Source: Clostridia bacterium (GTDB taxonomy: Bacteria; Bacillota; Clostridia; Oscillospirales; SIG627). Taken from it: 37,362 nucleotides of DNA. Made by a program: the position numbers and the translations under genes. The stretch covers positions 1-37,362 of the forward strand of contig JAFSID010000049.1 in NCBI GenBank assembly GCA_017439965.1, read 5' to 3'. Positions 3,674 to 6,272 of the stretch are shown piece by piece. The stretch's first letter is position 1; every line of letters starts with the position of its first letter. The notes under the pieces are model-generated. The model was not told where the DNA came from, made no database searches, and was given only the letters and a program-made list of their open reading frames with translations.

Positions 3674-4945
3674 ATGGCAGAAAAAGAAATTGTAATGAAC
3701 GGTGCCGGCATCGAAGAGATCGGCTTCCCGATGTGGCCCCAGTTCGATCCCAAGTCTCTTGAGGAGATCGTTGAGCCCTTAAAGAACGGTAAGGTTTCTT
3801 ACTGGACGGGTAAGAAGGGTATGGAATTTGAGGATAAGTTCGCTGAGTGGTCGGGCGCTAAGATGGCTATCTCCTGCACCAACGGTACCGCAGCGCTTCA
3901 CATCGCTCTCGCCAGCCTCGGCGTAGGCCCCGGCGATGAGGTTATCGTTCCCTCTTACTCCTTTATCGCATCCAGCTTCTCTGCAGTTCAGGCAGGTGCT
4001 ATTCCCGTATTCGCAGACGTTACCGAGGATCACACCATTGACCCCGATTGCATTGAAAAGCTCATCACCAAGCGTACTAAGGCTATCGTTGTAGTTCACC
4101 TTTACGGCGTTGTTTGTGATATGGACAGAGTTCTCGAAATCGCAAAGAAGCACAACCTCAAGGTTGTTGAGGACTGCGCTCAGTGTATCGGCGGTCGTTT
4201 CAAGGGCAAGATGGTTGGTACAGTCGGAGATGCAGGCTGCTACTCCTTCTGTCAGTCCAAGCACTTCACCACAGGCGGTGAGGGCGGTATGGTCATCACC
4301 ATGGACGAGGATCTCGGCTGGGAGTGTCGCTCCTTCCGTGACCACGGCTACGACGTTCGTACCCGTATGAATATGCTTGCTCTCGAGGAGAAGCTCCCCT
4401 ACATTCACCGTCGCGTAGGCTTCAATTACAGAATGACCGAAATTCAGTCTATCATCGGTATCAACGAGCTTGCTCGCTTTGACACCTATAACCTCCCCCG
4501 CCGTATCAAGTACGCTAAGATGTACGACGAGGCGTTTGCAGGCGTTAAGGGAATTGCTAAGCTCCCCTACAACGATGCTGACAGACAGAACTCTTACTGG
4601 TGGTATCCCATCACTCTCGACCTCGATGCTCTTGATTGCAAAGCTCAGGACGTTCTCAAGGAGCTTGCAGGTATGAAGATTCCCTGCTACGGCATCCAGT
4701 GGCCCGAGGCATACGAGGAGAAGGCTTATCAGGAGCACGGCGGCTTCGGCTCATGCAACTTCCCCTTCGAGTCCGAGGAATACACCGACCCCAAGTCTGT
4801 TGACTATAAGAGCGTTGTTTGTCCCAGAGCTAAGAGCCTCCGTGACAGAACCGTTTGTCTCTTCCTCCATCCCTCTTGGGAGGAAACTCACATCGAGCGT
4901 TGCATTAACGGACTGAAGACTGTTCTCGCAAACCACACCAAATAA
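3674..4945 (+). CDS. DegT/DnrJ/EryC1/StrS PLP-dependent aminotransferase
   Basis: 423 residues of the DegT/DnrJ/EryC1/StrS family, fold-type I PLP enzymes that aminate keto-sugars or keto-cyclitols. The Schiff-base lysine is Lys196 in SFCQSKHFTTGGEGG, and Asp167 in VVEDCAQ should contact the pyridine nitrogen. The N-terminal SCTNGTAALHIAL is the phosphate-binding loop. A full AGGAGG ribosome binding site lies at 3658-3663. Codon choice is strikingly biased (CTC, ATC, AAC, TTC, AAG, GCT) compared with the neighbours, as in highly expressed genes. The exact substrate cannot be read; pairing with an ROK regulator suggests an amino-sugar or aminocyclitol. A terminator lies 160 nt downstream. Confidence 0.88.
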   Translation: MAEKEIVMNGAGIEEIGFPMWPQFDPKSLEEIVEPLKNGKVSYWTGKKGMEFEDKFAEWSGAKMAISCTNGTAALHIALASLGVGPGDEVIVPSYSFIASSFSAVQAGAIPVFADVTEDHTIDPDCIEKLITKRTKAIVVVHLYGVVCDMDRVLEIAKKHNLKVVEDCAQCIGGRFKGKMVGTVGDAGCYSFCQSKHFTTGGEGGMVITMDEDLGWECRSFRDHGYDVRTRMNMLALEEKLPYIHRRVGFNYRMTEIQSIIGINELARFDTYNLPRRIKYAKMYDEAFAGVKGIAKLPYNDADRQNSYWWYPITLDLDALDCKAQDVLKELAGMKIPCYGIQWPEAYEEKAYQEHGGFGSCNFPFESEEYTDPKSVDYKSVVCPRAKSLRDRTVCLFLHPSWEETHIERCINGLKTVLANHTK

Positions 4946-4955
4946 TTTTTGCGGC

Positions 4956-5062
4956 AGATAATCTTCGTACTACTTCGTTGTCATCGGGATTCGACGAGCT
5001 CGAAATACCATCGTATTCCTTCGCTCGCCTCGCCCTTGACGCCTTGTATTACTCGATTCTCT
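4956..5062. repeat. Dispersed intergenic repeat, member A
   Basis: Starts AGATAAT-CTTCG-TACTACTTCGTTGTCATCGGGAT and continues with CTCGAAATACC and CGTATTCCTTCGCTCG. The left portion matches 29886-29926 (AGATAAGCGTCGC..TACTGCGTTATCATCGGGAT), and a further remnant GTCGCATACTACTGCGTT lies at about 5180-5197. No coding frame; it separates the aminotransferase stop from its terminator. Confidence 0.6.
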
Positions 5063-5102
5063 TTGCAAAAACAGTGCGGTTATTTAATAATAAAACAAAT
5101 AT

Positions 5103-5130
5103 GGGAGACCACATCAGGTCTCCCTCTTTT
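5103..5130 (+). terminator. Terminator of ROK-aminotransferase operon
   Basis: GGGAGACC (5103-5110), 6-nt loop ACATCA, GGTCTCCC (5117-5124), then TCTTTT. A second, weaker inverted pair GTTGCCTTGT (5131-5140) / ACAAGACAAC (about 5164-5173) follows. Confidence 0.75.
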
Positions 5131-5207
5131 GTTGCCTTGTCTCAGACGAATTTATTTAGCAAAACAAGACAACATATAAGTCGCATACTACTGCGTTAAA
5201 AACAAGA

Positions 5208-5372
5208 TAGGTCCATATATAAACCTAATCCAAAAAAAACAGTTTAGGGCTATATATAGACCTAATCTAAAAAACAGTTTAGGGTTATATATAGACCTAA
5301 CCTAAAAAATAATTTAGGGTTATATATAGACCTAATCCATAAAAAACAGTTCAGGTTCATATATAGCCCTAA
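5208..5372. repeat. Five-copy 22-bp quasi-palindrome array
   Basis: Five related 21-23-bp units start at about 5208, 5243, 5279, 5313 and 5350, so the period is 34-37 bp. The commonest form is TTAGGGTTATATATAGACCTAA: outer arms TTAGG/CCTAA and a TATATATA-rich centre. Linkers are short, A-rich and similar to each other (TCTAAAAAACAGT-like). The array lies between two convergent genes and contains no reading frame. Function unknown; see findings. Confidence 0.85.
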
Positions 5373-5394
5373 TCTATTATTATAATTAATTTTT

Positions 5395-5605
5395 GAAAAC
5401 CGCTTGCGGTTTTCTTCCTTAATGTTTCACAAAGTGAAATACATCACTTGACCGTAGGTCAAACATCATTCACCCTTTGACCGCAGGTCAAGCATCATTC
5501 ATCATTTGCGAAGCAAACATCATTTCCTTTGCGTTTCACAAAGTGAAACATTTCACGCACGCAAGTGCATTTCAGCTCGTATGAGCGAATTTCACTGCCG
5601 AAGGC
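5395..5605. repeat. Array of nine short hairpins
   Basis: Nine small perfect or near-perfect inverted repeats follow one another: 5395-5414, 5425-5439, 5448-5462, 5477-5491, 5505-5517, 5533-5549, 5557-5568, 5575-5586 and 5597-5605. Stems are 3-8 bp. Five or six loops are triloops, several of the form C-GNA-G (CGTAG, CGCAG, CGAAG twice). Spacers are variants of CATCATT or ATTTCA. The array abuts the stop codon of the epimerase gene on the opposite strand and could be its 3' untranslated region. Confidence 0.85.
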
Positions 5606-5606
5606 T

Positions 5607-6272
5607 TCATTCCAATATCTTATTTAATTTATCAATGTTTTCATCAATCGTTGCTTCCTTCGAGAAAACGCTTGATGTACCTGCAACGAAAATGCTTGCG
5701 CCCGCCTCACGCATAAGCTTTGCGTTTTCAAAGCTTACGTTTCCGTCAACCTCGATTTCGATATTCTCATAGCCCTCTTTATCGAGATATTCCCTTAATC
5801 GCTTTATTTTCTTCAGCGTAGACCCTACGAGCCTTTGCCCTGCAAAGCCCGGATTGACGGTCATAACCAGTACCGCGTCGATATCGTCGAGCAGGTTTTC
5901 AATAACGTTTATAGGCGTGCCCGGATTCAACGCGACCATAGACTTTGCGCCCCTGCCTTTAATTGCGGTCAACGCCTTATGAATATGCGGTGTAGACTCG
6001 TAATGCACGGAAACGTAATCGTTTTCACCAAATTCAAACCAATCCAGCTTATTTTCAGGTCTTTCTATCATAAGGTGAATATCCAAAGGAATATTCGTTT
6101 TACGCTTAAGAGCCTTTACAAAATCTGTGCCAAGCGTATAATTCGGCACAAAGCCTCCGTCCATTATATCAATATGGAGCAAATCAATATTATTCGCTTC
6201 AAACGTCCTTATGCTTTTTTCAAATTCAAAAAAATCCGCGCACATTACAGAGGGTGAAATCTTTTTCTTCAT
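5607..6272 (-). CDS. D-allulose-6-phosphate 3-epimerase-like (RPE family)
   Basis: 221 residues of the ribulose-phosphate 3-epimerase TIM-barrel family. Metal and acid-base residues are His33 and Asp35 (LLHIDIMDGG), His66 (LDIHLM) and Asp176 (IEVDGN). The phosphate loop MTVNPGFAGQ is present. The segment EGYENIEIEVDGNVS and the ISPSVMCADFFEFEKSI start resemble E. coli AlsE (allulose-6-phosphate epimerase) more than housekeeping Rpe; this is a judgement from memory of those sequences. The start codon overlaps the stop of the upstream dehydrogenase (TAATG), so the two are coupled. Likely role: interconverting ketose phosphates made by that dehydrogenase. A housekeeping Rpe is the alternative. 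Confidence 0.82.
   Translation of the reverse strand: MKKKISPSVMCADFFEFEKSIRTFEANNIDLLHIDIMDGGFVPNYTLGTDFVKALKRKTNIPLDIHLMIERPENKLDWFEFGENDYVSVHYESTPHIHKALTAIKGRGAKSMVALNPGTPINVIENLLDDIDAVLVMTVNPGFAGQRLVGSTLKKIKRLREYLDKEGYENIEIEVDGNVSFENAKLMREAGASIFVAGTSSVFSKEATIDENIDKLNKILE

Follow-up and report, generated by a model that had tools for sequence, protein, structure and literature searches.

A hairpin array beside an epimerase gene in a Clostridia bacterium, best explained as a non-autonomous copy of a dispersed modular repeat with relatives at PF05635 genes

In the window, by which we mean the whole stretch of 37,362 nucleotides that was analysed, an array of small hairpins lies between a forward-strand gene (3674–4945) and a converging reverse-strand gene, which the original prediction named an epimerase. 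A stem search confirmed the array at positions 5395–5605, identifying eight hairpins with stems of at least 4 bp, to which the sequence adds a ninth with a 3-bp stem, in agreement with the nine hairpins predicted. These hairpins make up the right-hand portion of a larger repeat, which starts with 35-nt palindromic repeats at about 5205–5376. The features of the locus are the following.

5103–5124, forward strand: terminator-like hairpin of the upstream forward-strand gene (3674–4945), outside the array
5205–5376, forward strand: about five 35-nt palindromic repeats of the TTTAGGGTTATATATAGACCTAATCTAAAAAACAG type, direct repeats with a spacing of 35–37, leader of the window copy
5395–5414, forward strand: head hairpin GAAAACCG-CTTG-CGGTTTTC, the constant first hairpin, in 32 copies from this genome and the sister species
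5424–5439, forward strand: hairpin 2, GTTTCAC-AAA-GTGAAA (5425–5439 in the stem search)
5448–5462, forward strand: hairpin 3, TTGACC-GTA-GGTCAA (stem search)
5477–5491, forward strand: hairpin 4, TTGACC-GCA-GGTCAA, stem shared with hairpin 3 (stem search)
5505–5517, forward strand: hairpin 5, TTTGC-GAA-GCAAA, flanked by CATCATT spacers (stem search)
5533–5549, forward strand: hairpin 6, GTTTCAC-AAA-GTGAAAC, stem shared with hairpin 2 (stem search)
5557–5568, forward strand: hairpin 7, GCAC-GCAA-GTGC, a unit recurring in other copies in this genome (stem search)
5575–5586, forward strand: hairpin 8, GCTC-GTAT-GAGC, a unit recurring in other copies in this genome (stem search)
5597–5605, forward strand: hairpin 9, GCC-GAA-GGC, adjoining the epimerase stop codon, read from the sequence and the last unit in other copies in this genome too
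5607–6272, reverse strand: converging epimerase gene, 3' end adjoining the array (open reading frame list)

Clusters of six or more hairpins appeared in none of 50 composition-matched shuffles of the window, and the array folds with z-scores of −6.2 as RNA and −5.9 as DNA, no shuffle being equally good. The original prediction had described different stems, mostly 3-nt loops and four C-GNA-G loops. The four loops are indeed present in the nine hairpins (GTA, GCA, GAA and GAA), the others being two AAA triloops and three loops of other lengths (CTTG, GCAA and GTAT). Likewise, the stems differ only in part, because TTGACC (at 5448 and 5477) and GTTTCAC (hairpins 2 and 6) are each used twice, leaving seven stem sequences. 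The minimum-energy RNA fold of the array consists of long-range pairing between the repeated stems, not of nine local hairpins.

The prediction that this is neither an ordinary terminator nor a CRISPR array was borne out. The stems differ and the would-be spacers are the repeated part, contrary to a CRISPR array; inside the array there is one weak site for an intrinsic terminator, on the reverse strand, and the clear terminator-like site is that at 5103–5124. A known structured RNA family was rejected, as no Rfam match was obtained at gathering score in the window. The site also does not represent a 23S rRNA intervening sequence (IVS), lying between protein genes, with relatives behind tRNA genes.

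The window array belongs to a dispersed family in its own genome, a 2.44-Mb draft of 106 contigs that is 90.6% complete and contains about 21 arrays of this build. Most have a leader, of 35-nt palindromic repeats or of another kind, followed by the head hairpin, a second hairpin GTTTCNC..GNGAAAC (GTTTCCC..GGGAAAC and GTTTTCC..GGAAAAC in other copies) and a variable number of further hairpins, with CATCATT, ATTTCAC or ATATCGA as spacers. The arrays mostly adjoin gene 3' ends: of 20 cases that could be scored, 18 have an antisense gene facing the array, its stop codon usually close by, and several arrays are located past the abutting gene's own terminator. Genes on the opposite flank show no preference for either orientation. 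Leaders homologous to the repeats at 5205–5376 are present at many other arrays, and the 35-nt pattern gave 72 and 59 matches in this genome with both strands counted, corresponding to a smaller number of units, since a near-palindrome is matched on both strands. The original prediction had overlooked that the array belongs to a repeat family and is accompanied by 35-nt repeats, as well as the context of PF05635 and tRNA genes in which relatives of the family are found.

Several further repeats were seen alongside this family. The 35-nt palindromes centre on TATATA and fall into two families, TTTAGGGTTATATATAGACCTAA and TTTGGACCATATATAGTCCA; some of their many copies in this genome occur without hairpin arrays, and they were also found at L305 (1135–1870), L307 and L309. 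A hairpin GGTTGAAAACCGC..GCGGTTTTCTTCC, near to the window head hairpin, lies between short-oligomer repeats in other genomes (L032 1490–1580, L033, L036, L039 and L308). The intergenic stretch 4940–5067, 3' of the forward-strand gene, matches L025 2698–2825 in inverted orientation, with 67% identity across 128 bp; the latter sits near another array, and the two may represent a further repeat.

The structure of the hairpins is conserved while their sequence changes. At the ninth pair of the head hairpin, the 32 copies carry C-G (19), the wobble T.G (8), A-T (3) or T-A (2), which supports the structural part of the original prediction. In the sister species G003, with flanks mostly about 90% identical, the family occupies orthologous places, at which internal modules have been replaced, lost or duplicated relative to the window's genome. 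The further claim of selection rather than simple copying is not supported, as the array is a copied dispersed repeat that also changes by module swapping. Orthologous epimerase genes in two sister species (G004 and G005) lack the array, indicating that it is not tied to the epimerase gene.

Among 295 genomes of the order, 63 contain hairpins flanked by CATCAT, compared to one match for the reversed control pattern; elsewhere in the phylum such hairpins are rare. Named hosts among the matches listed are uncultured Clostridia, Oscillospiraceae and similar, mostly from herbivore guts. The loop rule is real and polar, with GNA but never TNC on the CATCA strand and a C-G closing pair in nearly all hairpins. 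Arrays retrieved through the protein only, as described below, have GNA in 24 of 49 triloops, TNC in none and a closing C in all 49. Tetraloops tend to GNNA with the third base free, a pattern closer to the known stable DNA loops than to the RNA GNRA rule.

Some CATCAT arrays are paired around single small genes in a cassette-like manner (L078 31–1047, L079 6631–7688, L141 1551–2847 and L248 328–1089), the enclosed genes including an ADP-ribosylglycohydrolase and a DUF2695 protein. Array-flanked genes do not constitute one functional class, their Pfam content being mixed or none. An origin from plasmids or phages was likewise rejected, with no match in the plasmid or phage collection and only three viral contigs carrying the common hairpin unit. 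We found no description of such hairpin arrays in the open-access literature.

Related arrays are linked to a protein gene. Arrays of the same plan form the 5' region of genes for PF05635, the 23S-rRNA IVP/S23 family of four-helix bundles. At 117 loci baited by one hairpin unit, 35 PF05635 domains were found in 787 kb, where about one was expected, and the array was on the 5' side of the gene in 30 of the 35. Over the 295 genomes, arrays and PF05635 co-occur with an odds ratio of 8.0 (p = 8e-11, genomes treated without kinship correction), and Y1_Tnp showed no association with arrays across the order (p = 0.11). All three PF05635 genes in the window's genome have an array, located elsewhere than the window family and with other spacer classes. 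Nearly all PF05635 loci retrieved by profile have the same layout, comprising a tRNA 3' end, a terminator, a two-sided array in which the GNA strand switches midway, a likely promoter and the gene. A tRNA gene on the same strand, of many isotypes, precedes the PF05635 gene in 26 of 32 cases, the reversed orientation occurring in none; a tRNA 3' end is found no more than 120 bp away from 60 of 140 CATCA arrays, mostly at 46–47 bp, and no array has a tRNA 5' end nearby. The similarity between PF05635 loci starts behind the tRNA and ends approximately at the PF05635 stop codon, and the whole unit recurs behind many different tRNAs and in hosts of different families. Among the several spacer classes of these arrays, the class follows the PF05635 clade (11 changes versus a shuffled mean of 28.8). 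Closely similar proteins with matching spacer class occur in different host families, and at the tRNA-Gln locus the window's genome (L348) and G003 (L347) differ in spacer class as well as in the clade of PF05635.

The window array has polar c(GNA)g hairpins, a class spacer and a gene 3' end in common with the PF05635-linked class, and no adjacent PF05635 gene; none was found in the 181 kb around the arrays of its own family and those of the sister species. The two types of array share their plan and single units (e.g. TTGACCGTAGGTCAA in L034, with its reverse complement in L031), and most of their sequence differs. About half of the order-wide CATCAT arrays have no PF05635 gene within the retrieved stretch. 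In an unselected sample of PF05635 genes, 22 of 33 are flanked by inverted short-oligomer runs (e.g. AGTTGACAGTTGACAGT versus ACTGTCAACTGTCAACT), instead of or besides arrays, compared to 33 of 498 control open reading frames; L325, L331, L335, L342 and L346 are loci with such flanks.

Among known systems, the family resembles REP, REPIN and BIME sequences, being dispersed in many copies as intergenic palindromes, often 3' of genes, with relatives tied to a protein gene. It differs in consisting of arrays of different small hairpins and in the protein to which its relatives are linked, PF05635 instead of RAYT (Y1 HUH). REP membership was rejected, as no PF01797 (Y1_Tnp/RAYT) match was found in the window's draft genome and the hairpin bases lack the GTAG/CGTC tag, GTAG occurring only inside a loop and the flanks being the three spacers listed above. 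The BOX element of Streptococcus pneumoniae is intergenic and combines a constant end module with a variable number of inner stem-loop modules. In this general description it matches the window family, which is unrelated to it in sequence and places many stems under one loop and spacer rule. Integron attC sites are folded single-strand sites beside small variable genes, a likeness to the present arrays, which differ in being composed of perfect small hairpins. With the 23S rRNA IVS and its S23/IVP protein, the PF05635 modules share the protein family, palindromic surroundings and horizontal spread, but they are found outside rRNA, behind tRNA genes, and carry an array of small hairpins 5' of the gene. 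Avd, the accessory protein of diversity-generating retroelements (DGRs), is a four-helix-bundle protein, as is PF05635. The target hairpin or cruciform of this system is the nearest tested precedent, with a stem that is free to vary and a required purine-rich GRNA loop (PMC3240598). The present arrays differ in having many hairpins, mostly with GNA triloops.

The best explanation of the window array is a dispersed and modular repeat made of hairpins, of which it is a single non-autonomous copy and whose relatives are linked to PF05635 genes, an account to which we give about even chances. It is supported by the dispersed modular copies, the covarying stems, the module swaps, the epimerase orthologues without an array and the polar loop rule, and, for the relatives, by the PF05635 counts and co-occurrence, the tRNA placement, the unit boundaries and the spacer class following the clade, with the DGR target hairpin as a precedent. 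Counted against it are the lack of PF05635 in 181 kb, the different overall sequence of the two array types, the inverted flanks at PF05635 genes and the CATCAT arrays without such a gene. Neither a transposase nor a nick site, a target duplication or a clean empty site was seen at the arrays. As to its kind, the element is best read as a dispersed cis element of single-strand hairpins, similar to REP and BOX. The hairpins may function on the GNA strand, in single-stranded or cruciform form, where a PF05635 protein would read them through loop and spacer; they could be targets or ends in the spread of the element, or a site of regulation. The place of the window copy in such a scheme, suggested by the shared plan, the shared single units and an equal polarity with respect to the gene 3' end, would be that of a copy carried beside the epimerase gene, with no role in that gene. 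A broader proposal, which we advance tentatively and consider somewhat more apt to fail than to hold, is that the PF05635 loci are new compact mobile modules inserting behind tRNA genes. Each would consist of a terminator, a two-sided c(GNA)g array with a class-specific spacer, a promoter and the PF05635 gene, whose protein would spread or control the module by reading loop and spacer of single-stranded hairpins; solo arrays such as that in the window would be non-autonomous descendants.

The strongest alternative, possible but rather unlikely in our estimate, dispenses with a protein reader: the arrays would be passenger DNA upstream of PF05635 islands and at gene 3' ends, disseminated through homologous recombination or by some unknown recombinase, with template-switch repair of quasi-palindromes keeping the hairpins perfect. 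The modules swapped and duplicated in tandem at orthologous places are consistent with this, as are the neighbouring 35-nt repeats, which are likewise palindromic and variable, and recognition of the hairpins by a protein is itself a proposal. However, template-switch repair by itself leaves the polar GNA rule and the closing C unexplained, as it does the match between spacer class and PF05635 clade beyond simple linkage.

A function of the transcribed array as RNA, in protecting mRNA 3' ends, as an RNase III processing site or as a PF05635 leader, appears improbable. The strong RNA fold is in its favor, as is the array that directly precedes the PF05635 start at L350 in the window's genome, and the 23S IVS elements associated with the same protein family are stem-loops processed by RNase III (PMC4990558). 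The head and second hairpins show about 19 G.T or T.G wobbles versus one C.A on the GNA strand, a one-strand bias that is only suggestive, because the copies are related and a set of 13 C.A calls in hairpin 2 was excluded by inspection as a spurious outer extension beyond the stem; across the order the asymmetry is not significant (8 versus 4). The GNA strand, however, is antisense to the abutting gene and switches midway in two-sided arrays, several arrays lie beyond that gene's terminator, the tetraloops are GNNA and not strictly GNRA, and an Rfam match is absent. The specific suggestion that the array acts as the 3' end of the epimerase transcript is weakened, since its loops read UNC in that transcript, the wobble bias is on the opposite strand and orthologous genes lack the array. 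Least probable is a BIME-like chromosomal site between converging genes that absorbs supercoiling or binds gyrase or a nucleoid protein, for although most arrays of this genome face a converging gene at its 3' end, as REPs tend to (PMC3733652) and as the proposed location between convergent genes would have it, CATCAT arrays across the order are not enriched there (17 of 78, odds ratio 1.0).

The window array represents a novel form of dispersed palindromic repeat, and the protein with which its relatives are associated was not expected. Such arrays would explain some of the intergenic palindromes of gut Clostridia that lack annotation and that, in the analysed genomes, are often located where contigs end. 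For PF05635, a widespread orphan family, they provide a candidate DNA partner that co-varies with the protein and is characterized by its loops, its spacer class and its constant position behind tRNA genes, making the function of the family approachable by direct binding and mobility assays.
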